From a virus, in the IMG/VR virus record IMGVR_UViG_3300031974_005644, positions 1 through 55,205 of that record: a stretch of 55,205 bases of DNA. One strand, written 5' to 3'. Below, one piece after another: positions 4,064 to 36,528 of the stretch. Each line of letters opens with the position of its first letter. The stretch's first letter is position 1. Below the pieces are notes generated by a model. That model saw only the letters and a list, made by a program, of their open reading frames with translations, was not told the origin of the DNA and did no database searches. Both the position numbers and the translations under genes were made by a program.

Positions 4064-7000
4064 TCACCTGCCAAAAGCATCGTTCCAAATCCTGATCCCC
4101 GCTCGCACCTCGGCATCTCGCTCAGCCTCCCACTTCGCCTTCGTGGCGTCGTCAGGGGCATCCTCAATATCCCTGCGCGCTTTGCGATCTTCCTTGGCAA
4201 TCCATAGCACCTCATCAATGGCGTCTTCCTGCTTTTTGGTGAACTGGTCTGCATAGGGCTCGTCGCTGTCCTCCATGCTTTTGATAGTCTTCAACGCGGC
4301 ATCGGCCTGGCGGGCAATGTCGCTGAAGCGGCTGTCGTAGAAATACTCCGAACGTTCGTTGACGAAACGGCGAACCACCGGCACGTCGTTCCGATGGGTA
4401 GGCCCGTCACCAGCCAGCACGGTCACCATCCCTTCTACCAGGCGCCATTGCGGCCCTACATAGCCCTTGACCAGCGCCTCGGCGCCAGAAGCGCTCAGTG
4501 GGTCAACATTCCACGCTTCTTTGACCCAGTTCGGCCCGAACCGCGTGCCGCCCATCATCCCGTGCAGTGTTTGCATCAGGCCTGTCAGCGCTTTTTCTTC
4601 ATAGTCGCGGTACGCCACCGGGTCATAGGTGTCGTCACCGAAGCTGCGCCGGTAAATCGTGCTTCCGAAAGAGGTTTCGTTGTTCGCCACATTCAAGAAT
4701 GGCTCAGCCACGCTCGGAATCAGCGTGTCGGTCGGCATGAAACTGGTCATGAACGCGCTCAGCGACACGCCAACGGCCTCTGCCGGGCTCGCATTACCCC
4801 GAACGGCCCGACCCACCATCCGGCCCATGGCGTACGGCACGTTGTAGCCATAGGCAATCGGCCATTTGATAAAGGTGTCCTCATCAATAAACGCAGTCAG
4901 CTCGCGTCCCAGCGACCACTTCCCGGCCGCGTCTCCCAGTGGCTCGCCTTCCTCATCGTCGCCCTCAAGCAAGGACTCCACCAAGCCAGCCACCATCAAA
5001 CCCAGCATCGCGCGGCGAGTCCACTTGCTGCGAGCGGCAGCTTTCAGCATGGCAAAGTTGCCCTGCATGGCGGCGTTGAAGAACACATAGAAAGCACTCG
5101 GCCACTGCAGTTCGCCCTTCTGGTTGAAGTTCACAGTGGTGTCCTTCGCCAGCCGTGCCGATTCCTGCTTGCTCAAGCCGCGGTCACGGGCAGCTTTGTA
5201 GATCGCAAGACGGGTGGTGTTCTCGAAGATCTCGTTGTAACGCTCAAGCATGTTGAAGAAGCCGGAAACGCCCCCCTTCACACCCTGCACTGCAATGTTC
5301 GGAACCCCCTTCCGCTGCTGATCCACCAGCCTCTGGAACTCTGCCTTTATGTCGTCGACACCTGTGAGGCCATAGGCGCCAGTCGTACCGCCTGACTCCA
5401 GAAACTCGCGATACAACGGGCTGCCCTCGATTACCCAGCCCTTATCCTTGCCGCGAACCGCACCAACCAGACCAGCACGCAGATTCTTCATCACATCGAA
5501 GGCAAACCCCTTCGGGTCTTTCATGTCTGCGCCAAAGGCGTTCAGAAAAGCCGTTTGCACGTCACGAACAAAGTTGGGCAAAGCGAACTCGGGGTTGTAC
5601 ATCGTCAACGTCCGACCAAACAGCCGCGTGGCGGCGCCGATGCCCTTCAGCACCCAGCTCAGCTGCTCGCCCGCCATGTTCTTCAACTGCTTGGCCAGCC
5701 GTTTGTTCTGGAACTCCATCACCACCAACGCGCCGTCTACCCGCGCCATGAAGATTTCATCGCGGCGGTAAAGATCATTGATGCTCGGCACGTACTGAAC
5801 ATCGTCTTTGGTCACCATTCGGCCCTTGCCGTCCATCTGCGGCTTGCCAGTTTTAGGGTCAACCACCGGCACCTTCACGGTGCGCGCCATCTTCGGGTAC
5901 TCCGCCGGAGTCATCACTCGCCAGTAGTCACCTGCGGGGCCGCTGATGAGGCCTTCATTGCCGCTGGTTTCCAGAATCAGGTTGTAGACCGCTCGGCCGA
6001 CGCGATTCTTCTCAGCACGAACGAAGGTCTTCTGGGCATCAAGCAATGCGACAGCCAGCGGGTCTTCAGCGCGGGATGCCCGACCAAAGGCCTCACGGAT
6101 CACCGTCGACCGCTGATCGAACCCGTTGCCGGTGCCCTGCCCCTGTTCTTCGGGGTCAACGACGGACTTCAGCGGCACATAGTGCTGATACCCGGTGGTC
6201 AGGTCCTGGTACTGCTGCGCCGAGATCAGCCCAGCCTCGCGCATCAGGTTCAGCTTCTGCCGATTGATCGCCTGCACCACGCGGGACACCTCAGCCAGCG
6301 CGTCACGCTGTTCCTGCGGCAGTGCAGCCACTTCGGCAAGAATCTTCTTCGCCTGCCGGTTGGTCATGCCCGACCCACCATCGGGGAACATGCTGTTCCG
6401 CTCGGCAATGGCCGCGTTGCGCTCCTGAGCGTGCAGCGCATACAGGTAGTCACTGGCCTGCTTGAAGCTCACGCCAGCCTTGTTCATCACCTTGAACAGC
6501 GCCTTGGTCGTGTCCTTCAGATCGTCCAGGCGCGTCTGCGTGCGGCCGTAGAAGGTCTTCTCCAGGCTGCCGGGGTCACGCTCGTCAGGAATCGCAACGC
6601 CCTTGCCCTTCAGGAACTTCACGGCACGCTCGACTTCCGAGAAGCGGTTGATGAACCACGGATACAAGTTGTGGTTAAGCGCCCGCCTGTTGTCGGCGCG
6701 CACTTTGCGGTGCCAAATCCCCCAGCCGCCCCAGTTGGGTGGCAGCAGGGTTGAGATGTCATCCGGGTCGGTGCTGGTTTGATCCTGGCGGCTAAATTTA
6801 ACGTCGGCCCCAGAATCAGAGAACCCGCCATCGGGCGGGTTCTGGGTTACATCCGATTCGCCTTGTCTCGGGCGATCATCTGTCGGATTTCGGCGCTCGC
6901 CTGCTTCATTTCTTGCCGCAACGATTCGATCTCGGACGCCGTCAGCGTCCTGACCTGCTCTTTCGTTGGAGACTTTGGCTCGAGCTTGTTCACTTGTTCC

Positions 7001-10000
7001 GATCCTACCGGCATTGACGGATTCAAGCCATTGCGCGATGCTCTGACTGTCCTCGGGACTTCGTGGCGCGGCCATTGGGGCCGTCAGCTGTGAAGCCTCG
7101 GGGATTTTTTGTGCCTCAATGATGGCGTCACCGTCATACAGCATGTCGCCGTTGACGTTCTCGCGGACCACGTAGCGCACAAACACGGGCTCACCCGAAA
7201 TTCTCGCGCGAACTCCAAAATGGTGGAACGCCGCAGTCGAATCATCGGGCTTAGAGCGAACCGGCTGGCTCCACAAGAGCCTCGCCGCGGGCAGCAACTC
7301 GCCAACGCTTCCGATCACGGCCCGCATGCGCGGGTCGGCGGAATGGCTGCGCATCTTCCGCAGCGCACGATTCACGATCTGCACTTGATTGCCGTCCGCC
7401 GTCTTGACCGACCGTCCCACTACCTGCCGGTAGTCGGCAGCGGCCTCACCTAGTGACGCGGGCGTCTCAACCGATATCGGCGTCATCGAGGTCAGCATCT
7501 TCGCGCGCGTCAGCGAGTCGGGTTCGGCTTGGCGCGCAAACAGCGGCTGCCCTGACATCGCCGCGTCGCGCATCGCCGGGCGCAACTGCCCCTCGGCCGT
7601 GGCCTGCAGCACGTCCGCCACCAGCGTCTTGACGCTTTGAAGGTCGCGCATCGTGCGCTGGGCAAATTGGGACTGCCGCATGTCTTCGCGGCGAAGGCGA
7701 GACATCATCTTCTCGATCCAGAAGCGCAGCCGGTTCATCAACCGCTTGAACGCGTTGGGCTCCATGCGCTGCTTCAGGTCAAACAACACCTTCGGATCCG
7801 ACATGATCGAGCCCATCACGTCGGCGACGAACTCGTTCTCGACCTTCGCGCGGCTCAGGGCGGGTAGCCCGTCGCGCTGGTACACCTTCTCCAACCGCGC
7901 CTCATAGGCCGGGAATGCCCCTTCCTTGGCCATCTCCAGGATGCGGGCCTTCAGAATCGCATGCAGCTCGGCTGCCGGGCCTTCCAGCGAGTGTGTGAAC
8001 TCATGGCCCAGCACATGCCGCAGCGGCTGCTTGGCATCGGCGTTCACAAACAGCACGCCGCCGCTCACATACACACCAGCAGGCGCCCGCGTGTCACTGC
8101 TCTCGAAGAACACCGCCTTGCGGCCCAGCAGGGTCTCCATCGTTTCCGACAGGCCACGCATGGCCCTGGGCGGCTCAACCGCACGCAACGGCACGTCCTG
8201 CCCTGCCTGCCGGGCCAGAATGGCGTTCAGCTTCTCCACCTGGCCGCGATCCCACTCGGGCGCGTCGGGGCGGTTGGATGCGGGGACGGTGCCAGACTGC
8301 AATCGCGAAATGTCGGGATCAGCTGGATCAAAGGTGCCGCGGTTGCCGGTCGCTGACTTCACTTGCTCGGGGCGGAAGGCAACGTAGGTCTCATTGCCCC
8401 AGTGATAACCCTGACCAAAACGCCCCTCGTCAGTAACATTTCGGATTATTACACCGTCGTACCCGGCCGCTTTAGCCTGATCGACGATCTCCGGCACAGA
8501 CTCGTGCCCGTCGTATTCACCTTCTAGGGCTCCGTCCCAGTTACGCCCACCGAAATCCACTTCTAAAGGGTCATGGATGGACAGGTAGACCGGATACACC
8601 CCTGCCTCACCGTCATAGTCTGGGTCGAAGTCGTCGCGCAACTTCGCTTCGGTAGACCGACCTGAATAGGTTTCGGCGTTTTTCTTGGACTCTGTGAAGA
8701 AAAATCCAGCCCTTGCGTTCTGTGTGTTCGAGCCCGCCCGATCCTCATCAAAAACAGTGAAACCTGCATTTGGACTGCCGTGGTACACCACCAACGGCTT
8801 GCCGTCAGCATCAACAACCTTGCTGTCGCCAAACCACCGCTTAAATTCTGCCGTCTGAGTCTGATCTGCGGCCGACTGCCCATCCCGGCTGAACAGCACC
8901 ACGTTGTCGCCGTCCTGCTGCGTTTCGATTGTTTCGAATAGCGCATCAAAGGCCTGAGCCACCGGCGCCACTTCCTCGGGCATCAGGTAGGGGTAGCGGC
9001 CCTTGTCGCGCGTGAAGGCCTCCAGCGCCACCACGTTGGCGAGAAAGTCATTCTGGTAGCCCTTCTCCATCATCTTCGAGATCACGTAGTTCTCGAAGCT
9101 GCGAGCGCCACGCTCAATGATCTGCGACCAGTAGGCCTTCTTGTCGCTGTCCAGCAGCCGAGCGCGCGCAGCCATGGGCGATTCGTTCAGCGCTTCGACC
9201 AGGTCCGCGAAACGCTCTTCCACCTCCGGCCGCACGCCTTGTGGTGCCGACGGGTCGCGCTCCCACTTGTCGTCGTTGAAGTTGTCGGTCTGGTCGCCCA
9301 GTGCCCGGCGCTTGGCCAGAAGTTGCCCGCGCGTCATCGGCGGGAAGAGCCGGCTCCGGTCCTTCCGCACCATCAGCGGTTCGGGCTTGTAGGTGATGAA
9401 ATTCGCCCCCTGGGCACCATCGCCCCCGACTCGCTTGCGAGCAAAGTAGTTGTCCAGCGCGTGGAACCACTCATGCGCCAGCGAGCCAGCGCCCTTGGTC
9501 TTGGTCAGGTTGATGACCAGCGTATCCGGCTCGAAGTGAGCCGCAGCTTTGCCGCCCTTGCCTCGCGAACCCAGCCCAAGGCCCAGCGTGCCGCCCAGCG
9601 ACATCGCACGCGGCGGCACGCCCACGACGTCGGACAAGTCCATCAGCGCGTCGTAGACCTCGTTCAACATGCCCTGCCGGTCTTTCTGGCCTGTGCCCTG
9701 CTGCAGCCAATTGCCAAACTCGACGCCACGGAACCCAAAGGCTTCGGTGAACATCGCCTCGTCAGCATCGCGTCCATTGCGCCGGTCGGCCCCGGTGCGG
9801 GGGCGGTTCTCGCTGCGGCGCACGTCAGACTTGCGCACGTTGTCGCGATCCTTGACGCCCTCCCACTCGGACACCAGCTCGTCGTAGTTCTCGCTGATGA
9901 AGGTGAACGCCTGCTTGGGCGTCTGGAACTCGCGCAGCACGCGCTTTTCCTTGTCGCCCTTCTTGGTGATGAAAACCACCCCGTCACTGCGTCGGGTGTA

Positions 10001-13000
10001 GACGTTGAACTGCATCTTCGGCTTGGCCGGGCCGTCACCAGCCAGCTTCTCGACAACGCGGGGCACTACGCCCTCGACGTCACCAAAGCCCTGAAACCAC
10101 GAACGCTTGCCGTCAATCTCAACCAGTACCGCCGGTTGGCTTTCGCGCTCGCCGTCGACGTAGCTATATGCCTCCGGGGCTTCAACCACGCCACCGATGC
10201 GCGGCCACTGGGAGCGTTCAATCTTCTCCAGCAGGCGAACCTTGGCAAACCAGTTTCCTAGCGTCGGCGTTTCCGCAATCAGCGCGTCAACCTTCTCGCG
10301 GCCAACGCCCTGTACGGCCTTGGCCATGCCGCGCATCTGCTGCACGGTGGCGACCCAGCGCTTCAGCTTGTAGCCCTTGCGGGGCTTGGCGGGGATTTCT
10401 TCGCGGGCGGCCGTCAGCAGCGCGGCAATGAACTTGTCCTCAACCGCGTCAATCTCGGTCTTCGGCCAAATCTTGCTCAGCGGCTGGCTGGCAATGTCTT
10501 CATCCGTCAGCTCACGGCTCAGTGACGGCGCGTCATCCTTGCGGGCGCCGCCCAGCTTCTCGCCGAAATCGTCCAAGCGGTTGGCGGATGGCGAGCTTTC
10601 GAGGCGAGGTGCACTCTCAGGGCCAGGCGGGGCATCCGATTGCGTAGACGGCGGCGAGATACCCGCGCGCTGTTCACCGGAGCCGCTTGCTCCCTCAACA
10701 ACCCGCCCCTCCAGCTCAGCCGTGAACACCCGCCGCGCATCGTCATCAAACGGCACGCCAAAGCGCTCGGCTGTGGCCTGCGGGAACTGGGCAACCGCAT
10801 CGGCAACCGCTTCGCGCGCCTTCGCCTTGCCGAACGGCAACTTCACCCCGGTTTCGCGCTCAAGCGCACGCGCGGCGGCCTGCACGTCGGCACCCTTCAT
10901 CGCGTCAATGCGGGCCTGCACCTGGCTAGTCAGCAATGCGCGAGCCTGTGATACGTCGGACTGGGTGACTTGCGGCGCGGAAGTGGCGCTTTCAGACGCC
11001 GCAGACGTTGCAGCCACGGGCGTTTCGGCTTTGCTCCCCTCGTCCATGCGGGGAGCAAAAATGTCCCCCTGTCCGCGCGCAGTCCCGACGTCTGCCTGCC
11101 GGTCGCTACCAGTCAGCGTGAAGTCGCCGGCCTCACGCTCCGACTGCGCCCGCATCTCGGCTTGTTGGCGCTGCTTCTGCTTCTGGGCCTCGGCCTGGGC
11201 CACGCGCGCTTCATCCTTCTGGCGCGACGCCTCGGTCTGCTGTGCCAAAGAAAAGGCCCCGGTGTCGGGGCCTTGAGTTACTTCGGTTTGGCTGGCGGCG
11301 GGCTCGCCGGTTGCGACTGCTTGGCCGCTGCCTCGCGCATCCGCTTCGCGTCCCGCACCGCTTGCAGCAACCTGATCGGCCTGCCGCGCAGCTTCTGCTC
11401 TTCCATCAATGATCTCCTGAACGGCGCGCATGAAGGCCGCATCATCATTCTCAAACTGTCGGGCCGCCATTTCAACTGCGGCTTCATCTACCTCGTTTGC
11501 CTGCTCGACCAGAGCGTAGTCAATCACGTCCGGCTTGTTGTCGCCGGACAGGTCCCGGCCGGTAAGCGCCAGCGCATCGACTGCGTCAACGCCCAGCTCA
11601 TCCGCTGCATCCTGCGCGGTCATGGCCTCGTCGTTGCGCAGCGCAATCCAGCGGTCACGCGCCTCGATGCTCAGCACCGGCTCGCTCTTCGTGATGGCGT
11701 TGTAAATCAGGTCGCGCGCGGCCTGCACGCCGCCGTCGACATCGTTGAAGTCGGTCTCGCTGATGAAGCCGGCGTTGTAAAGGTCGGTGGCGACATCATC
11801 AATCGTGCGGCCACCCTTGCGGAACAGGCCAGGCGCCATTCGGGCGGCCGTACGTGGTTGCTCGCGAGTGATGTCCGTGCGCTCGCCGATGTCGATGCCG
11901 GTGCCGCGTAGCATCTTCATCAAGTAGCGGCGCTCGTTGGCCTCGATGTCCTCGGCCGTTTCGGGTTTTGGTGCCTTGGAACGAGAAACCCCGCCGGTGG
12001 GCGGGGTCGTCAGTGCAGGCGCTGGCTCGGGCCGGGGCTGTGCCAAAGGTGCAGGCGTTCGCATGCCGGGTGCAGGCATTCCGGCATCAGCACCTCCGTC
12101 TCCGTCGGCACGTCCTTCGTCAGCCGGTACAGCGCGTGCGCCTCCCAGCGTTTGATCACCCGGCTGCCCATTGCTTGCCGCAGCCACTTCGGCAGGACTG
12201 ATTTCGCCACTCGGCGTCTCCTTTTCCAGCAGGGTTTTGATTTCGGCAGTGACCGCGGCGTCCGCATTCTGATCGGCGCGCCACTCGGCAAACTCTTCGG
12301 GCGCCGTGAAGGCACGCTCAACGCCGGGGGCGGTCCAGTACGGCGTACCGTCCTCATCCGTCTGCTGAGTGAGGGTGACGCCTTCCACCACCACTGGCTT
12401 TGCGGGCTCTGCCTTTGGCGCCACCGGCGGTGCGGCCTTCTTCTTGCCGCTGCGAATGTCCATGTACTCGCGCAAGCTCATGCGCGGCTTTGTGGGTTCG
12501 GGCTTCAGGGGCTCGCCTGTGCCGATATTGCCTGCTGCGCCGATGGGACCACCCAGTGCAGCACCCGCAACGGCGCCAGCACCGGCCTGAGCCATCACAC
12601 CACGCATGGAATCACGCTCAGGGTCTGCGCCAGAGTCGATTGCCGCGCGGTTCTGCGCAAAGGCGTCGCCGCCCTCCTGGATGAACTCTTCTCCGGTCTG
12701 TGCGCCGACACCACGGGCGACGGCGCTTGGAACGCTGCGCGCGACCGTTTCAGGGACGATCCCGCGCGTCGCGATCTTTCCGATCTGCGAAGACGCCCCC
12801 GTCAATCGGCCAGCGACAGCGGTGATTCCGGCCGATAGCTGGGCAGCGGTATCCATGGCGCTGGACTTCATCATCCGCCGCGCCTCAACGGCACCGACTT
12901 GCGGCATCAGGCTTGCGAAGCGCGGCGATACTGCCGCCAATTCCTCGTCGGATACGTCGTCAATGGCCGCAGCGGCCTCGTCGGCGCTCATGTTGGCGGC

Positions 13001-14080
13001 GATAGTGGCTTCGGCCCCTGCAACCGCACCCGTTGCCTTAACAGCGGTTCGCTTGGCGGCGATCAGCGCGGCAGCTCGCGGATTAAATCCTGCTCTCACA
13101 TGAAGGTCATACGTCTTCTTGAACAGCGGTGCCGCCGCTGCGCGCGCAAAACCCCCAGCCACGAACATATCTGGGACCGTCTCTGCCACGGTGACTGCCA
13201 ACGCGCGCGGGTTGTTGGTCATGGCGGACGCACCCGCCCAAACCTGATTCACCATATCCAACAGGCTGCCGCTGCCATCGGCGGCCGCATCCATGGCGGC
13301 GCTCACGACCTGCTGCTGCTCTTGGGTTTCCAGCGACAGGTTGCGACTCACTGCGTCCTGAATGGCGCGGCGACCGCGCACATAGGTGTCCTGCAGCGCC
13401 TGCTGATCCTTGATCGGCTTGATCTGCTCAGCCACCCACCCAGCGCCCGGAATGCCCAAGGCGTCGTATGCGCGGAAGCCCCCTCGCACACCTCGGGCAG
13501 CAAGATCGGCGGTGCCCACGGCAAGGTCAGCGGGCAGCATGGCGGCACGCGCGCCCAGCGACATCGCCGCATCAGTCGCCAGATTGCCCGACGCAGGCCG
13601 CTCCCTGTCAGGGGATGCCTTACCGAACGCCCCTCGCAGGACGTCTTCAGATACATCGGGCGCGGCCGGTTCTGGCTGGGCACGGGCAATGGTCTGCGGA
13701 GCGGCAGTGCTCTGGTCGAATCCGGCCGACATCGGGAAGGCCTGGCCGTTCTTGATGACCGCCTGTCGACCCTGAGCGTCGTTCTGGATCTCGCCGGGTT
13801 GCACATCGTCGAGCAAGTCGGCGCGCAGTGGAACCGGCAAGCGCGAACGCGTCGGCGCCTCGGCGTACCCGGCATCGCCCATCAGCTCGACCGCCTTCGG
13901 GTTGCGTTTGTCCTCGGGCCGGTAGCTATCCCAGCGCTTGAGGGCTGTTCCCAGCTTCTCCGGCGGAATCCTCGGTGCCAGCACCTTCTCGAAGTAGTTG
14001 TTGCGCACACGCGCCCGCTCATCTGGCGGCAAGCGCTGAAAACCATCGGACTCAACCAGGCGATCCCATTGAGCAGACAT
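4064..14080 (-). CDS. Giant polyvalent ejected virion protein (zincins, ART, nuclease-like, LPD38-type domains)
   Basis: At 3338 residues this single gene is 18% of the window. Visible parts: N-terminal helical and Ala/Gly-rich region (1-520); Pro/Ala linkers; a Glu/Gln/Lys coiled coil (about 940-985); an LPD1-type zincin with HEWFH at 1536-1540 and following DNYF; an ADP-ribosyltransferase-like domain (about 1735-1925) with VYHGS at 1765 and GFFFTES; a second metallopeptidase with HEFTH at 2026-2030 and a downstream ENEFVAD; a domain at about 2215-2330 resembling barnase/EndoU-like or LPD3 domains of polyvalent proteins; and a long C-terminal region (from about 2450), with LPD38-like sequence from MYNPEF at 2827 and a hydrophobic segment near 3025. 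Such proteins are packaged and injected to protect the genome or modify host targets. It starts with GAGGTAATCA before ATG, 3 bases after the preceding ejection gene. Confidence 0.88.
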   Translation of the reverse strand: MSAQWDRLVESDGFQRLPPDERARVRNNYFEKVLAPRIPPEKLGTALKRWDSYRPEDKRNPKAVELMGDAGYAEAPTRSRLPVPLRADLLDDVQPGEIQNDAQGRQAVIKNGQAFPMSAGFDQSTAAPQTIARAQPEPAAPDVSEDVLRGAFGKASPDRERPASGNLATDAAMSLGARAAMLPADLAVGTADLAARGVRGGFRAYDALGIPGAGWVAEQIKPIKDQQALQDTYVRGRRAIQDAVSRNLSLETQEQQQVVSAAMDAAADGSGSLLDMVNQVWAGASAMTNNPRALAVTVAETVPDMFVAGGFARAAAAPLFKKTYDLHVRAGFNPRAAALIAAKRTAVKATGAVAGAEATIAANMSADEAAAAIDDVSDEELAAVSPRFASLMPQVGAVEARRMMKSSAMDTAAQLSAGITAVAGRLTGASSQIGKIATRGIVPETVARSVPSAVARGVGAQTGEEFIQEGGDAFAQNRAAIDSGADPERDSMRGVMAQAGAGAVAGAALGGPIGAAGNIGTGEPLKPEPTKPRMSLREYMDIRSGKKKAAPPVAPKAEPAKPVVVEGVTLTQQTDEDGTPYWTAPGVERAFTAPEEFAEWRADQNADAAVTAEIKTLLEKETPSGEISPAEVAAASNGQPGDQTLGGARAVPADEGRADGDGGADAGMPAPGMRTPAPLAQPRPEPAPALTTPPTGGVSRSKAPKPETAEDIEANERRYLMKMLRGTGIDIGERTDITREQPRTAARMAPGLFRKGGRTIDDVATDLYNAGFISETDFNDVDGGVQAARDLIYNAITKSEPVLSIEARDRWIALRNDEAMTAQDAADELGVDAVDALALTGRDLSGDNKPDVIDYALVEQANEVDEAAVEMAARQFENDDAAFMRAVQEIIDGRAEAARQADQVAASGAGREADARGSGQAVATGEPAASQTEVTQGPDTGAFSLAQQTEASRQKDEARVAQAEAQKQKQRQQAEMRAQSEREAGDFTLTGSDRQADVGTARGQGDIFAPRMDEGSKAETPVAATSAASESATSAPQVTQSDVSQARALLTSQVQARIDAMKGADVQAAARALERETGVKLPFGKAKAREAVADAVAQFPQATAERFGVPFDDDARRVFTAELEGRVVEGASGSGEQRAGISPPSTQSDAPPGPESAPRLESSPSANRLDDFGEKLGGARKDDAPSLSRELTDEDIASQPLSKIWPKTEIDAVEDKFIAALLTAAREEIPAKPRKGYKLKRWVATVQQMRGMAKAVQGVGREKVDALIAETPTLGNWFAKVRLLEKIERSQWPRIGGVVEAPEAYSYVDGERESQPAVLVEIDGKRSWFQGFGDVEGVVPRVVEKLAGDGPAKPKMQFNVYTRRSDGVVFITKKGDKEKRVLREFQTPKQAFTFISENYDELVSEWEGVKDRDNVRKSDVRRSENRPRTGADRRNGRDADEAMFTEAFGFRGVEFGNWLQQGTGQKDRQGMLNEVYDALMDLSDVVGVPPRAMSLGGTLGLGLGSRGKGGKAAAHFEPDTLVINLTKTKGAGSLAHEWFHALDNYFARKRVGGDGAQGANFITYKPEPLMVRKDRSRLFPPMTRGQLLAKRRALGDQTDNFNDDKWERDPSAPQGVRPEVEERFADLVEALNESPMAARARLLDSDKKAYWSQIIERGARSFENYVISKMMEKGYQNDFLANVVALEAFTRDKGRYPYLMPEEVAPVAQAFDALFETIETQQDGDNVVLFSRDGQSAADQTQTAEFKRWFGDSKVVDADGKPLVVYHGSPNAGFTVFDEDRAGSNTQNARAGFFFTESKKNAETYSGRSTEAKLRDDFDPDYDGEAGVYPVYLSIHDPLEVDFGGRNWDGALEGEYDGHESVPEIVDQAKAAGYDGVIIRNVTDEGRFGQGYHWGNETYVAFRPEQVKSATGNRGTFDPADPDISRLQSGTVPASNRPDAPEWDRGQVEKLNAILARQAGQDVPLRAVEPPRAMRGLSETMETLLGRKAVFFESSDTRAPAGVYVSGGVLFVNADAKQPLRHVLGHEFTHSLEGPAAELHAILKARILEMAKEGAFPAYEARLEKVYQRDGLPALSRAKVENEFVADVMGSIMSDPKVLFDLKQRMEPNAFKRLMNRLRFWIEKMMSRLRREDMRQSQFAQRTMRDLQSVKTLVADVLQATAEGQLRPAMRDAAMSGQPLFARQAEPDSLTRAKMLTSMTPISVETPASLGEAAADYRQVVGRSVKTADGNQVQIVNRALRKMRSHSADPRMRAVIGSVGELLPAARLLWSQPVRSKPDDSTAAFHHFGVRARISGEPVFVRYVVRENVNGDMLYDGDAIIEAQKIPEASQLTAPMAAPRSPEDSQSIAQWLESVNAGRIGTSEQARAKVSNERAGQDADGVRDRIVAARNEAGERRNPTDDRPRQGESDVTQNPPDGGFSDSGADVKFSRQDQTSTDPDDISTLLPPNWGGWGIWHRKVRADNRRALNHNLYPWFINRFSEVERAVKFLKGKGVAIPDERDPGSLEKTFYGRTQTRLDDLKDTTKALFKVMNKAGVSFKQASDYLYALHAQERNAAIAERNSMFPDGGSGMTNRQAKKILAEVAALPQEQRDALAEVSRVVQAINRQKLNLMREAGLISAQQYQDLTTGYQHYVPLKSVVDPEEQGQGTGNGFDQRSTVIREAFGRASRAEDPLAVALLDAQKTFVRAEKNRVGRAVYNLILETSGNEGLISGPAGDYWRVMTPAEYPKMARTVKVPVVDPKTGKPQMDGKGRMVTKDDVQYVPSINDLYRRDEIFMARVDGALVVMEFQNKRLAKQLKNMAGEQLSWVLKGIGAATRLFGRTLTMYNPEFALPNFVRDVQTAFLNAFGADMKDPKGFAFDVMKNLRAGLVGAVRGKDKGWVIEGSPLYREFLESGGTTGAYGLTGVDDIKAEFQRLVDQQRKGVPNIAVQGVKGGVSGFFNMLERYNEIFENTTRLAIYKAARDRGLSKQESARLAKDTTVNFNQKGELQWPSAFYVFFNAAMQGNFAMLKAAARSKWTRRAMLGLMVAGLVESLLEGDDEEGEPLGDAAGKWSLGRELTAFIDEDTFIKWPIAYGYNVPYAMGRMVGRAVRGNASPAEAVGVSLSAFMTSFMPTDTLIPSVAEPFLNVANNETSFGSTIYRRSFGDDTYDPVAYRDYEEKALTGLMQTLHGMMGGTRFGPNWVKEAWNVDPLSASGAEALVKGYVGPQWRLVEGMVTVLAGDGPTHRNDVPVVRRFVNERSEYFYDSRFSDIARQADAALKTIKSMEDSDEPYADQFTKKQEDAIDEVLWIAKEDRKARRDIEDAPDDATKAKWEAERDAEVRAGIRIWNDAFGR

Positions 14081-30121: not shown

Positions 30122-32149
30122 TTACCAGAGGTATTCGGGTTGACGCTCTGGTGCAGCGGCGGGCGGGATCACCGCGTTCGTCGCCACGGTTTGTTCAATC
30201 TCGACCGTCTCGGCCTTGGTCTTGATGGTTTCGGCCGCCGTCTGAGCGGCCTTGACCTCTTCGTGCTGGGCCTCGGCCTGCGCCTTGGCGGCTTGGCCCG
30301 ATTCCTTCGCGGCCTTGGCCTCGGCGAGCGCGATCTGCAGCTGCTCCATCATCTCGGCGATCTCGGCCTGCTTCTGGGCGGACTGCTGCTCTTCCGGCGT
30401 CATGTCGTCCGGTTCCTGCATGCCCATCTGCTTGCGAATCATCTTCGCCATGTCGTGCTTGTGCGGCATTTCCGACATTTCGATCAGGATCGGCAGCGCC
30501 GCGCTACGCAGGCGTTCGTCGCCAATCGTCTGGATCGAGCGCGCCACTTCCTGGAACTGCTGCATGCGGTGCGTCGGCGTGCTCGGCACGTCATCGAGCG
30601 TCACCTGCAACTGCACCTGCTTGATGTTGTTCTTGATGAACTCATAGCCGTCCGGGTGCTGTTCCCGCACGTTCACCGGCACCACGATGCGCTTGCCGCC
30701 TTCCTTCTTCGCCTTGACCTCACCGGGCTTGCTGCCGATGTCTTCGATGATCAGCGCCAGCAATTGGCGACCCATTGCGGTACGGGCATCGCGGGCCATG
30801 CCAGACGGGCGGCTCTGGCTGTTCATGCCCTGCTCGACCATCGTGTTCATGGCCACGCCGCTGGTGATGCCCGACTCACGCTGGCCACTGAGACTGCGCG
30901 GCACGCCGGCAAGCTGCGGCATCAGGCTCATCATGTCGCTGTAGATGCCCATCTGCTCACGCGAGAGCTGGAAGTCGGCCTTGATCTCCAACTTGCTGCC
31001 GGGCTTGCGCGCCGGGTTCAGCTCGATCATCCCGTCGGGCCGGCTCATTTCTTCGCGCAGCATGTCGGGGTCGGTCACGGCGTCGGCGTCGTAGATCGCC
31101 TGCTTCTGGTTCAGGCCCCACATGGCGCGTGCCAGTCGGGTGTTCACCTGGTCCTGCAGGCTCATGATCACGCGGATCAGGCCATACGGAGACCCGGTGC
31201 GGCCCTCGCGATCATAGACCACGGGGATATACGGAAACTCGTCATGCGGGTATGGGCTGGGGCCATCCACCAGACAGATGTCACCCACGTACACCGCGCG
31301 GTTCATCTGCTTCACCAACGTCGGCTTCGGCTCAATCAGGCCCGACTCATAGGCCCGAACGTGCATCGGGTCCTTCTGGTCGAACTTCACCCAGCGACCA
31401 TTCGGCAGCAGCACCGCATAGCCTGCGGTCTCGGTGCGGTAATAGATCTCTTCCAGCGCCAACAGGTCACGGCCGGCGCCCCAAAGGTCGCGGCTGACCA
31501 TGGTCATGTCGTTCCAGGCGCCGTCACGCTGGTACTGCTGCGGCTCGTACCAACCGGTCGACTGATCGCCAGGGCCTGCCATGCGCAGCGCTGCCACCTT
31601 CTTCGGGTAGCGCTTCTCGATCTGCGAGCGCTGGAAGAACTTCACGCGGCGCAGATACTCGGCATCGCCGACGATGTTGGGCGACTTCGCACGCGGGTCC
31701 CACCACATCTCGCGCCAGTCCACCAGGCCAGTGCGGTAGGGGTAATCCAGCAGACTTTCGCTGCGACCGACCTCAATCCAGCCGATGCCGGCGCGGGACT
31801 GCGACAGCGTGGCATCCAGCCATGTGCGATCTGCCTCGGTGCGCGACTCAGCTTCTTTCAGCCGCAGGCTCAGCACCTGCGCCAGCTCTTCGTGGTCGTC
31901 TGAGGCCTCGGGCCGCACGATCCAGTCCGACTGGTTGCGCTCATGCAGGCCAACGATGGTCTGCACCAGGTCGCGGCACAGGTTCGCCACGGTGAGCGGC
32001 ATTCCGCGCTCTTCCATCTTGCGGGCCGTCTCGGCGTCAAACTGGTTGCCGTCGTAGTAATCCTCGGCCACGGCAGAGTCGTAGCGCCACGAGCTGCCGA
32101 AGGTGGCGTCGTTGCGCCACATCTGCAGTTGTTCGGGGCTCAGGGCCAC
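30122..32149 (-). CDS. Portal protein (P22 type)
   Basis: 675 residues, the usual length of P22-like portals. Recognisable segments are YDSAVAEDYYDGNQF and PLTVANLCRDLVQTIVGLHERNQSDW near the start, DWREMWWDPRAKSPN, YGLIRVIMSLQDQVNTRLARAMW and SGQRESGITSGVAMNTMVEQGM in the middle. The C-terminal 110 residues form a charged helix (QKQAEIAEMMEQLQIALAEAKAAKES) like the P22 barrel. It forms the dodecameric DNA channel at the head vertex. It starts with GTG. The 102-bp gap to the scaffold gene has a GC hairpin without a T-run. Confidence 0.9.
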   Translation of the reverse strand: MALSPEQLQMWRNDATFGSSWRYDSAVAEDYYDGNQFDAETARKMEERGMPLTVANLCRDLVQTIVGLHERNQSDWIVRPEASDDHEELAQVLSLRLKEAESRTEADRTWLDATLSQSRAGIGWIEVGRSESLLDYPYRTGLVDWREMWWDPRAKSPNIVGDAEYLRRVKFFQRSQIEKRYPKKVAALRMAGPGDQSTGWYEPQQYQRDGAWNDMTMVSRDLWGAGRDLLALEEIYYRTETAGYAVLLPNGRWVKFDQKDPMHVRAYESGLIEPKPTLVKQMNRAVYVGDICLVDGPSPYPHDEFPYIPVVYDREGRTGSPYGLIRVIMSLQDQVNTRLARAMWGLNQKQAIYDADAVTDPDMLREEMSRPDGMIELNPARKPGSKLEIKADFQLSREQMGIYSDMMSLMPQLAGVPRSLSGQRESGITSGVAMNTMVEQGMNSQSRPSGMARDARTAMGRQLLALIIEDIGSKPGEVKAKKEGGKRIVVPVNVREQHPDGYEFIKNNIKQVQLQVTLDDVPSTPTHRMQQFQEVARSIQTIGDERLRSAALPILIEMSEMPHKHDMAKMIRKQMGMQEPDDMTPEEQQSAQKQAEIAEMMEQLQIALAEAKAAKESGQAAKAQAEAQHEEVKAAQTAAETIKTKAETVEIEQTVATNAVIPPAAAPERQPEYLW

Positions 32150-32440: not shown

Positions 32441-33217
32441 TCAGGCTCTCCAATTGGGCGCCGGCCGGTGGCGGTCGCGGGTTTGCGGCTTGCAGATGGC
32501 ATAGCGCCGCATCACAAAGGCGTATCGGCTGGCGGCCATCAGGTCGTCAGCCTCCTTCACGATCTTTCCGTCTTTGCGGTGGTACAGCCGAAACTCGTCC
32601 CACCAGTCCGACAGGTGAGCGGCGACCTTGAACGTGCCGATCTGCATGGCATCAAGCATTTCCGAGATGCCGGCCTCAACCGACACCCGCGACACGTTCG
32701 TTTCGCCTTCGCTGCCCGCCTCGGGAAGCTGGGCAATCTCGTGCAGCATGTTCAGACCCTGGCCCCGGTACTGCTCAGCCAGTTGAATGCCGGTGCCCTT
32801 CTCGGTCTGCAGGCCGTCAGCCGGCCATGCAACGGGGATCCACACGCCACGCGCCTTGATCGCCGCGGCGTGAGTGACCGGCGTCTTCTGCGCGACCCGA
32901 TAGGTGTCGTACAGATACATCGTGTCGGTGTCTCGATCCCAGGCGAACCAAGCTGCAGCGGTCGGGTGATCCCACCCGAAGTCCATGCCGCAGATACGTG
33001 GCCAATGGGCCGGAAACGGAAACAGGTTGAACTTGATCGACTCTTCGTCGACCGGGAATATCGCGCCGCTGCCCAGTGCCGGAATGCCTTGAGACCGGGC
33101 CTTGCGTAAGTGCGCTGGTGTCGAGGCCAGCAGTTCCGCCTTGGTCTTGGCGTCAAGATGAGGCACATTGTCCCAGCCCGCCATCACCAGGTACTTCGAA
33201 GGTGAAACTTCAGGCAT
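32441..33217 (-). CDS. Terminase large subunit, C-terminal nuclease half (split gene)
   Basis: 258 residues from ATG 33217: [20 protein letters not shown] resumes exactly where a typical terminase continues after its ATPase domain. RNase H-like nuclease acidic residues are visible at D79 (CGMDFGWD), D133 (PADG) and D224/D225 ([12 protein letters not shown]). The N-terminal ATPase half is a separate gene at 33770-34516, with an HNH gene in between. The ATG overlaps the HNH stop (ATGCCTGA), so translation can be coupled; a weak AAGG lies about 10 nt upstream. Both halves keep their key residues and could assemble as a two-chain packaging motor. Confidence 0.87.
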
Positions 33218-33764
33218 AACTAATGCCCTTGGCCAAATTCTCGCGGGCACTTATCACTTGCAAGTTGTGTGCGACGTGCAGGCCGCACACGTTGATTCCC
33301 TTGAGGGGAACGATGTGGTCAACGTGCATCACCAACTCCTGCGGGTCATCGCACGCCACACAGGCCGCTAGTTTGGCCTGCAGGTCCATCGCTTCGCGGT
33401 AAATGGCGCGGATCGCGGCGTCGTTCTCCCTGGCGCCTGATCTCATCAGCGCTTTGCGCATGCGTTGCGCCTTGGCCTTGTTAGAGCGGTGCGCAGGGTC
33501 TAGTTGCCGCCTTGAGTTGTAGGAGGCAAGGTGTGACTTGTTCGCGCGCTTCCATGCCAGGGATGTGGCGCGGTCGATGTCTCCCTTGATCGCGTAGCGA
33601 GCCATCCGGCGGGCGCGCGCGCATTCCGTGCAACGGGACTCGTAGCGTGTGCTGGCTTTGCCTTGACGCGTGGTGTACGGGTAACTGTAGAAATGATCCA
33701 GAGACAGGAGACGCCCGCAGGTGATGCAAGGTCGCTCGCCGGCGGTGATGACGGTGTAGGCCAT
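33210..33764 (-). CDS. HNH endonuclease inserted in the terminase gene
   Basis: 184 residues: an N-terminal zinc module ([15 protein letters not shown] and [14 protein letters not shown]), an Arg/Lys-rich linker, and a C-terminal HNH domain ([39 protein letters not shown]). It looks like a free-standing homing endonuclease. Its start lies 3 bases after the terminase ATPase-half stop and its stop overlaps the nuclease-half start. Outside the ORF only about 10 bases remain, too few for a group I intron core, and the frame differs from the terminase, ruling out an intein. Confidence 0.87.
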
Positions 33765-33769
33765 GTCGT

Positions 33770-34516
33770 TCAGTTGCCTTTCGGCATCCCGTTGGGCAGG
33801 AAGCTCTTCACCGTCTCTGTCACGCCTTCAAGCGGCGTGAACGTGATGGCGACCATGCCGCCGGTTGTTGCGGTACGGATCAGGCACTCGCCGTAAATGT
33901 CGATGGGCGGCTCTTCGTCGAGCCAGATCACGTCCTGCTCGGTGCCCTCAAAAGCCCCGCGGCCCTGCTGGTAGCTCTTGAGGCCCAGTCGCGACCATCC
34001 GCCGCTGACGTGCTCCACCATCACCGTGTCGAGAAGGTCCTGAACGCCTTGCTTCCAGTTCAAATCGCCGATGGCGTCGCCATAAATCAGCCCGGTACCG
34101 CTGACAGACTTCGGCGCGCCGCCCATCACCGAACCGACCAGCTTGGCTTGCACGATGTCGCGCGTCGTTTCGTTGGTCTTGCCAGCAGCCCATGCGCTGA
34201 TCGGGCGAGTGAACCGGCGGCCAGGCCACCAGTCGGGATACTGTCCCGTCAAATGCAGCGCTATTTCGTAGCCGCCTGCGCCTTCCGATTTACCGATGCG
34301 ATTGGCCGCCAAGAAACACCGCTCGCGATACGTCGCGCCGGCCGCGAAGAACTCCAGGTGTTTGGGGTACAACTCACGCCGCAACGGCCCTTCGTCCGGG
34401 AAGAACGAATCAATCTTCCGACGACTCTTCCGACGCTCCGCTTCCTCCAGCAACTCCAATAGCTGTAGCCGCTCCGAGCGCGGCAACTGCTCCCAGTTTG
34501 GCGGCAAGTCGGGCAT
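33770..34516 (-). CDS. Terminase large subunit, N-terminal ATPase half (split gene)
   Basis: 248 residues containing the packaging ATPase: a Walker A-like AANRIGKS at 70-77, Walker B with catalytic Glu in [10 protein letters not shown] (D200, E201) and the coupling motif ITFTPLEG at 225-231. It then stops after [10 protein letters not shown], in the linker that normally joins ATPase and nuclease domains. Its start lies inside the end of the small terminase gene. The break is precisely between domains, with the nuclease encoded separately downstream. Confidence 0.87.
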
Positions 34517-35030
34517 TCAGATCCTCGTCCGAGATGTTGCGTACATCGACGTTGGCGTCGACCGAGACTTTGTCGCCGTACTCTTTCGAGGCGATCTTCG
34601 CGGCTCGCCAGCGGTAGTGATGAGCGAGCTCCTTGGCCTTCTTCAACTCGAACTCATCCTTGGCGAGATCGATCCTCGATTCCGCCTTCTCGTCCCAAAG
34701 TTTCGCCGTCGCAGTACGGGCCTCGCGCACGCGCGCGGAACGAACCGGATCTGCGTCAATCCACACCAGCAATCGAGTCAGCGAAGCGCCTGCCTCTGCG
34801 GCAATGTCCGTGAGGCTCTTACGGTCGATGATGGCCTCGCAAAGACGCGAGATGCCGTAGTTGTCCATCGCCTCTACAGTCGCGCCGCGCTTGGTCTTGC
34901 ACGTCTTCGGCTTAGCCGCCGCCTTTGCCTTCGGCTGGCTGGACTTCGGCACCGGCGTCTTCTTGGGCGCCGCCTTCTTCCCCGCTGGCTTGGTGGGCGC
35001 CTTCGTCGCGCCGCGCGCCTTCGTGCTCAC
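34410..35030 (-). CDS. Terminase small subunit
   Basis: 206 residues. A Lys/Ala/Pro-rich basic start (1-50) precedes a helix-turn-helix-like domain (ISRLCEAIIDRKSLTDIAAEAGASLTRLL) with WIDADPVRSARVREARTA, common in small terminases that recognise the packaging site. A helical oligomerisation region and acidic C-terminus follow. It overlaps the ATPase gene by 107 bases in another frame and begins with GTG overlapping the holin stop. Confidence 0.83.
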   Translation of the reverse strand: MSTKARGATKAPTKPAGKKAAPKKTPVPKSSQPKAKAAAKPKTCKTKRGATVEAMDNYGISRLCEAIIDRKSLTDIAAEAGASLTRLLVWIDADPVRSARVREARTATAKLWDEKAESRIDLAKDEFELKKAKELAHHYRWRAAKIASKEYGDKVSVDANVDVRNISDEDLNARLAAKLGAVAALGAATAIGVAGGSGASEESSED

Positions 35031-35719: not shown

Positions 35720-35747
35720 TGGTAGCGGCGGGTCGAGTCGAACGACC
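35720..35747 (-). other. tRNA 3'-end-like element (T-arm, acceptor strand, CCA)
   Basis: The minus strand reads GGTCG-TTCGACT-CGACC, a 5-bp T-stem with a 7-nt loop fitting TTCRANY and the invariant G-C closing pair. It is followed by seven acceptor-like bases (CGCCGCT), a discriminator A and CCA at the exact tRNA spacing. No matching 5' half is found upstream, where the endonuclease VII gene lies; its TAG stop shares the first G of the T-stem. It could be an attachment-site core derived from a host tRNA, or a tRNA mimic. Confidence 0.45.
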
Positions 35748-36190
35748 TATATTTGCCGCGCCTCAAGGTACTGAATGATGTTTTCGACTTTACGCTTCAC
35801 GGCAGGCAGGCTATCTCCAAGACGCCCAATCAAAGTATTGCAATGCCTGCACAAAATCCCGCGCGGTTTTTGGCTTTCGTGGCAGTGATCAAAAACCAGA
35901 TCTTTCTTGCTTAAGCAAACCTGGCATTCATCAATGCCTAAACCGAGAAGTGCGCCTACGCTCAGCACATCTAGTTTGTAGCGGGCTGCAATGACCTTAT
36001 CTTGGTTCCGCGCTTCCCATGATCTAACAGCATCTTTGTGCCGCTCTCGGTTCGCCGGATACCAGACCTCTCTAACGTATTTGTTGTGGCATGCCTTACA
36101 TTTTGATGATCTACCAGTTTTACTGGCGGACTTCTTTGAAAATGATGCCTCTGGCAGATGCTCTCCGCACGAAATACATTCGTAGATCAT
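35747..36190 (-). CDS. Recombination endonuclease VII-like protein
   Basis: 147 residues from ATG 36190. An N-terminal zinc module (CISCGEHLPEASFS and SKCKACHNKYVREVW) is followed by the endonuclease VII signature CQVCLSKKDLVFDHCHESQKPRGILCRHCNT split over residues about 95-128, with Cys pairs and DHCH catalytic/zinc residues. Family members resolve branched DNA or act as homing nucleases. The gene is clearly less GC-rich than its neighbours and lies between a terminator and the tRNA-like element, which suggests recent acquisition. Confidence 0.85.
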   Translation of the reverse strand: MIYECISCGEHLPEASFSKKSASKTGRSSKCKACHNKYVREVWYPANRERHKDAVRSWEARNQDKVIAARYKLDVLSVGALLGLGIDECQVCLSKKDLVFDHCHESQKPRGILCRHCNTLIGRLGDSLPAVKRKVENIIQYLEARQI

Positions 36191-36245
36191 GGGCGATCCT
36201 GTTATGAGCCACGCGGAATGCCGGTTTCCTACAGCCGCTTCAAAC

Positions 36246-36269
36246 AAAAAACCCGGCGCGGAGGCCGGG
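36246..36269 (-). terminator. Terminator before endonuclease VII gene
   Basis: On the minus strand GCCCGG-type stem CCCGGC/GCCGGG (36252-36257 with 36264-36269) with a 6-nt loop, followed by TTTTTTG. It separates the endonuclease VII and packaging genes from transcription entering from the Q-like region, fitting a Q-dependent late operon. Confidence 0.75.
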
Positions 36270-36528
36270 CTCATGAATAGCTGAAAACGGGCCGGAGATG
36301 ATCCCGGCTTGCATGCCTGCCACGGTGTAGAACACGACGCCTACACTTTTCGCCGCCGCCCGGTCCTGCATCATCGCTTGCTGGCGATGGCCGTTGCTTG
36401 CCGGATTATCGCTGCACATCATCACTGCGCACTTCCGCTTTCAAGCGATGCCGTCCGGGGCCTCGCGCTACGCACTTGGCTGGTGCCGCATCCTTCAAAG
36501 CTCTCGGCTGTCCGAGATTTCTAACGAC
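36270..36528. other. Intergenic stretch between two minus-strand terminators
   Basis: About 260 bases lie between the terminators at 36246 and 36529. A 61-codon minus frame (36240-36425) runs through the downstream terminator and is weakly supported. A small CTCGG/CCGAG hairpin lies near 36503-36516. By analogy with lambda, the late promoter and antitermination site of the adjacent Q-like gene could be here, but no clear promoter is visible. Confidence 0.4.

Follow-up and report, generated by a model that had tools for sequence, protein, structure and literature searches.

A probable two-chain large terminase with an exchangeable nuclease chain and a putative homing endonuclease gene at its junction

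Models of the large terminase (TerL) place the ATPase and the nuclease on one chain, with the lid as the link between them. In the viral DNA analysed here (the window, 55,205 nucleotides), a preliminary description made from the sequence alone noted two separate terminase genes with an HNH gene between them, an arrangement confirmed by the ORFs, by the Pfam matches to Terminase_6N and Terminase_6C and by PHROGs (Table 1). The locus raises the question of whether such a terminase is still a working motor, and whether the HNH gene was what broke it.

Table 1. Features of the terL locus and its neighbours in the window.
Feature	Positions	Strand	Evidence or remark
terL-N, ATPase core, 248 aa	33770..34516	-	Pfam Terminase_6N, 1.1e-12; alignment of 17 split relatives
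Walker A; Walker B; motif III	34286-34309; 33911-33931; 33833-33844	-	Within terL-N
Free-standing HNH endonuclease gene, 184 aa	33210..33764	-	Pfam HNH (weak); PHROGs; N-terminal signature
terL-C, lid segment and RNase H-like nuclease, 258 aa, own ATG (33217)	32441..33217	-	Pfam Terminase_6C, 1.1e-18
N-terminal segment of the nuclease chain (~47 residues), forming the C-terminus of the ATPase domain (strand and two helices, putative lid)	33077..33217	-	
8-base overlap ATGCCTGA, HNH stop and nuclease start	33210..33217	-	
Small terminase subunit (Sf6-like), upstream neighbour	34410..35030	-	PF20901, 2.5e-9
P22-like portal, downstream neighbour	30122..32149	-	PF16510, 1.8e-88

The minus-strand genes follow each other in the order small terminase subunit (TerS), ATPase half, HNH gene, nuclease half, a small gene and the portal gene. 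The spacer between the ATPase half and the HNH gene is only 5 bases, and the nuclease ATG does overlap the HNH stop, as had been pointed out. This ATG is preceded by a weak Shine-Dalgarno-like AAGG, and the open frame of the nuclease extends up to a GTG at 33250 and ends with the stop at 32441. The middle ORF was assigned to endonuclease VII/HNH in PHROGs (3.6e-18), its Pfam HNH match being weak, and carries the motif HVDHIVPL...NLQ...N..K together with CxxC pairs. The best PHROG of the ATPase half is annotated as 'unknown function', NCBIfam gave no match for it, and a search of the rest of the record found no second ATPase of the terL-N kind. Over 7,048 bases the window sequence recurs at 100% identity in a second contig, which may belong to the same sampling series. 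Elsewhere in the window, a second HNH-type ORF of the endonuclease VII type (Pfam 3.9e-12) lies on the minus strand at 35747-36274, just upstream of the terminase genes, and a minus-strand ORF of 3338 aa at 4064-14080 is longer than is usual for a podovirus-like genome.

Both halves keep their catalytic residues, in agreement with the preliminary description. The ATPase half contains a Walker A motif (NRIGKS), a Walker B motif (LDEE) and motif III (TFTP), all conserved, and N72, R73, G75, K76, D200, E201, E202, T227 and P228 are invariant in the alignment of 17 relatives. In the nuclease chain, which was matched by the profile of the P22 nuclease domain (4DKW) at 2.1e-69, D79 is invariant and D224 is at least 90% conserved. 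The ATPase motifs and the RNase H-like nuclease domain of a P22/Sf6-like large terminase are thus both present; the single polypeptide is not, its place being taken by two ORFs separated by stops and an inserted gene.

The break had been placed in the interdomain linker. It actually falls within the ATPase domain, past motif III and short of the lid segment, and about 47 residues of the ATPase C-terminus, forming the putative lid, are carried by the nuclease chain. The Terminase_6N model runs on into the nuclease ORF, with profile positions 164-214 aligned to ORF residues 21-71, and the 4DKW match starts only at residue 48 of the nuclease chain. In the structure predicted for an intact Cupriavidus homologue (mean pLDDT 83), which resembles solved terminases, the break site corresponds to a low-confidence loop, after which come a strand (249-254), two helices and then the nuclease domain. 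When the nuclease chain was modelled alone, its first segment was poorly predicted and the strand was absent, which would fit a need for the ATPase sheet. Alignment with intact terminases gave a linker of 13 residues versus 16 in Cupriavidus, and as the loop at the break site is of variable length in intact relatives, no conserved residue has been lost.

The split is widespread among relatives, the comparisons resting mostly on metagenomic contigs. Among 80 non-redundant relatives in viral contigs, 28 are split, most of them with the halves adjacent or overlapping and HNH absent, and such HNH-less splits occur at 60-77% ATPase identity to the window. Of 38 loci from bacterial-genome assemblies, many of them named isolates, 25 are split, including those of Herminiimonas, Azospirillum, Acetobacter, Roseomonas, Aminobacter, Acidovorax and Vibrio galatheae. 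In a second, distant clade (ATPase ~40% identical to that of the window), the split occurs in every one of the 79 contigs that have both halves, the window-type HNH being found at six of these junctions and an endonuclease VII-type ORF at five; even where the nucleases are 95-100% identical, the two genes lie in all three relative frames. The nuclease start codons are ATG in 43 cases, GTG in nine and TTG in two (n=54), a supportive rather than blind count because the starts were picked at the aligned position. Other junctions hold genes for a radical SAM protein, a GDSL hydrolase, a DUF1643 protein or an HTH protein, an assortment to be expected of an ordinary gene boundary. Five closely related Acidovorax prophages (L150, L153, L154, L155 and L163) differ in what separates their ATPase and nuclease genes: the inserts measure 0-2 kb, and HTH and DUF1643 genes are among them.

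In close split pairs dN/dS is mostly 0.05-0.2 for both halves, indicating that both are in use; some ATPase pairs reach 0.3-0.46, probably owing to saturated dS. No split TerL was seen among named phages, the six records examined out of ~400 matches all being intact. The exact phrase 'split terminase' had no match in the literature searched, and related phrases yielded nothing relevant. Actinobacteriophage annotators name terminase ATPase and nuclease genes separately, and split terminases elsewhere may be known.

Once separate, the nuclease gene has not always stayed with its ATPase partner. In the ATPase tree the window groups with split relatives (21 rows, SH-aLRT 97), a group that comprises 40 rows, 37 of them split, when genomes are added. 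In the nuclease tree those split phages divide into two distant types, and a tree forced to join the 21 was rejected (AU p=0.00014). The window and L013, for instance, share 78% identity in the ATPase and 49% in the nuclease. At 65-80% ATPase identity, nuclease identity fell below 50% in none of 80 intact pairs versus about 35% of 202 split pairs, the pairs in both counts being non-independent. Parsimony gave three to four swaps; grouping all nuclease-B rows together within the split clade was not rejected (p=0.165), so a single swap inside the clade is possible. At least once in the split clade, a nuclease gene of a distant type has taken the place of the earlier one. Two intact Cupriavidus terminases (L127, 4001-5509; L130, 4001-5512) nest inside this clade, and a constraint excluding all intact rows from it was rejected (p=0.00014), so the splits may have arisen repeatedly or been re-fused; in L127 and L130 the two genes may have rejoined naturally.

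The HNH gene has an HNH motif, a reading frame of its own and neither an intron nor an intein as host, as do free-standing HNH homing endonucleases. Its N-terminal signature, used as a DNA pattern, was found in ten stretches among 2.9 million IMG/VR viral contigs, all at the terL junction, some of them from nearly the same virus and hence amounting to fewer than ten independent cases. Relatives of the gene also lie at the terL junction of Roseomonas (L132) and of a Rhizobiaceae metagenome-assembled genome (L156), and a search of whole genomes (385 and 369) gave one match, a member already known. The gene can be read as a free-standing homing endonuclease whose family is dedicated to the terL junction, with cleavage and homing as its predicted activities. 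An endonuclease VII type is found at the terL junction of L033, L297, L301, L315, L316 and L318.

Occupied and empty junctions were found in two sets of near-identical relatives; for the HNH of the window itself, no relative is close enough for such a comparison. L256, which has the gene, and L016-L018, which lack it, are 99% identical in the ATPase (over the 100 residues held in L256) and 96.5% in the nuclease, a near-identity indicating that the HNH of this pair entered an already split gene; L261 and L262 have 100% identical nucleases, with the HNH present in L261 and absent from L262. In L256 the gene lies after nuclease codon 14, and the nuclease 5' end is repeated over 38 bases on each side of it, the copies differing at synonymous sites only. 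The HNH ORF of L156 (7791-8387) opens by repeating the nuclease N-terminus (MPAITESRYLVQA), and the downstream nuclease copy, from 8375 onward, has nearly the same residues in mostly different codons. Only in these two loci, L156 and L256, can a stolen or duplicated nuclease start be made out clearly. The nuclease copy after the HNH is frameshifted by an insertion of 7 bases in L256 (near 1028-1034) and of 5 bases in L121 (near 2567), in both cases directly behind GW(N/S) and ahead of DVPHL; these insertions are possible scars of endonuclease cutting, and some occupied loci may thus be dead.

The window itself has no clear repeat of the nuclease start around its HNH gene, and a stolen nuclease start was rejected as the origin of the HNH N-terminus, which is closer to other HNHs (MGYTKIRDG, MYTKIKDG) than to nuclease starts. 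In its nearest empty form, L126 from Herminiimonas, the ATPase tail (GMPKNA and stop) overlaps the nuclease start (MPEV) by the same ATGCCTGA; in the window the ATPase ends with GMPKGN and a stop, followed by the HNH gene and then by the overlap as in L126. This comparison shows that the HNH gene has replaced the last ATPase codons and kept the old overlap. The overlap had been thought to tie the supply of the nuclease to translation of the homing enzyme. Such coupling is nothing special to the HNH, as the overlap already links ATPase and nuclease in the HNH-less L126, L009, L011, L012, L013 and L016; the HNH 3' end simply stands in place of the ATPase tail.

Could the two genes nevertheless yield one full-length TerL, through programmed frameshifting, bypassing or splicing? 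The ATPase and nuclease lie in the same frame in the window, and many relatives have +1 or -1 overlaps. Against this, the insert has eight stops in the ATPase frame, which also exclude an intein, and a group I intron, already doubted in the preliminary description, has no room in 5 spacer bases and an 8-base overlap; Rfam searches of the window and of 13 loci with inserts matched no intron. Near-identical relatives differ in frame, the nuclease start always has a start codon, and the two ORFs occur in all three relative frames with gaps ranging from overlap to 3.9 kb, which excludes a common frameshift or splice and leaves a single full-length product very improbable. It is just as hard to believe that the locus is a decayed or misassembled terminase, in a dead prophage or in a phage packaging its DNA with another enzyme: the frameshifted nuclease copies of L121 and L256 are what such decay might look like, but the halves in the window are full length with their catalytic residues, the relatives are under purifying selection, and the layout is repeated in bacterial-genome assemblies and many contigs.

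A more serious competitor, though still an unlikely one, is that insertion of the HNH gene split an intact terL, as in Aeh1 nrdA, and that the HNH-less relatives lost the gene later. This origin had been assumed in the preliminary description, and it draws some support from L033, where an endonuclease VII-type HNH lies between the halves of a gene that is intact in the close relative L059, from L258, which is split with an HNH and has a nuclease 93% identical to that of the intact L127, and from family members at the same junction in distant lineages. The nearest HNH-less relatives of the window, however, are split with a clean 8-base overlap, the HNH occurs in only a few of ~38 split clade members, many splits have unrelated inserts or none, and in L256/L016 the HNH enters a gene already split. 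With dozens of related phages, close and distant, split without HNH, the gene is probably not the cause; in the lineage of the window the split probably predates it, and the HNH is probably a visitor at an existing break.

The reading preferred here, to which we give a probability of roughly 0.8, is a stable two-chain terminase with an exchangeable lid and nuclease chain and sporadic invasion by homing endonucleases, its assembly, homing and coupling being inferred from sequence; a motor in two chains, as suggested earlier, is probable. Chain 1 would be the ATPase core, and chain 2 would comprise the final strand of the ATPase domain and its lid, together with the nuclease. Translation of the two chains would be coupled through their adjacent, overlapping genes, and both would reassemble into one motor subunit in which the nuclease chain completes the ATPase fold. 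The HNH gene would enter phages lacking it by homing, and its 3' end would keep or re-supply the nuclease start, so that the packaging genes survive. Slightly better than even odds may be given to the broader proposition of a widespread bipartite motor of tailed phages, with an ATPase finished in trans by the strand and lid of the nuclease chain, swappable nuclease chains and a dedicated homing endonuclease family at the junction.

The main interest would lie in this clade-wide combination of a two-chain terminase, an exchangeable nuclease and a dedicated homing endonuclease. A natural terminase broken inside the ATPase domain would make the coupling of lid, ATPase and nuclease testable by mixing chains. 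An essential motor could, it appears, dispense with its covalent link and go on to exchange one of its parts, and the split terL would be a place where homing endonucleases do no harm. Both halves will be mislabelled by annotation tools looking for a TerL of ~500 residues.

Among the closest known systems is the P22/Sf6-type large terminase (P22 gp2 nuclease domain, 4DKW), which is alike in domains, motifs and neighbours (Sf6-like TerS, P22-like portal), with intact homologues 50-70% identical; in the window the protein comes as two polypeptides, and the break precedes the lid segment within the ATPase domain. ICP1 has a spliced intron in terL, and terL of Campylobacter phage IBB_35 was reported as intron/intein (PMC10448857, PMC3322345); these genes are likewise interrupted in association with homing endonucleases, whereas neither intron nor intein fits in the window. 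The genes-in-pieces ribonucleotide reductase of Aeh1, nrdA/mobE (Friedrich 2007, as cited in PMC2988022 and PMC3322345), is likewise an essential phage enzyme in two parts with a gene for an HNH homing endonuclease between them; it differs from the terL case in that most relatives of the window are split without an endonuclease, and lineages have exchanged the nuclease part. In the fungal mitochondrial mobile ORFs, which bring a replacement gene end (PMC3630166), the endonuclease gene lies, as in L256 and L156, between two mostly synonymous copies of a host gene end, although in L256 and L156 the copy is of the 5' end and in a phage, and no such copy is clear in the window. In phages 25 and 44RR the gene 43 DNA polymerase is another essential enzyme in two pieces, and the review describing it also considers that an already split gene may have been invaded by an endonuclease (PMC2988022); the protein is a different one, and the terL relatives show near-identical occupied and empty sites directly.
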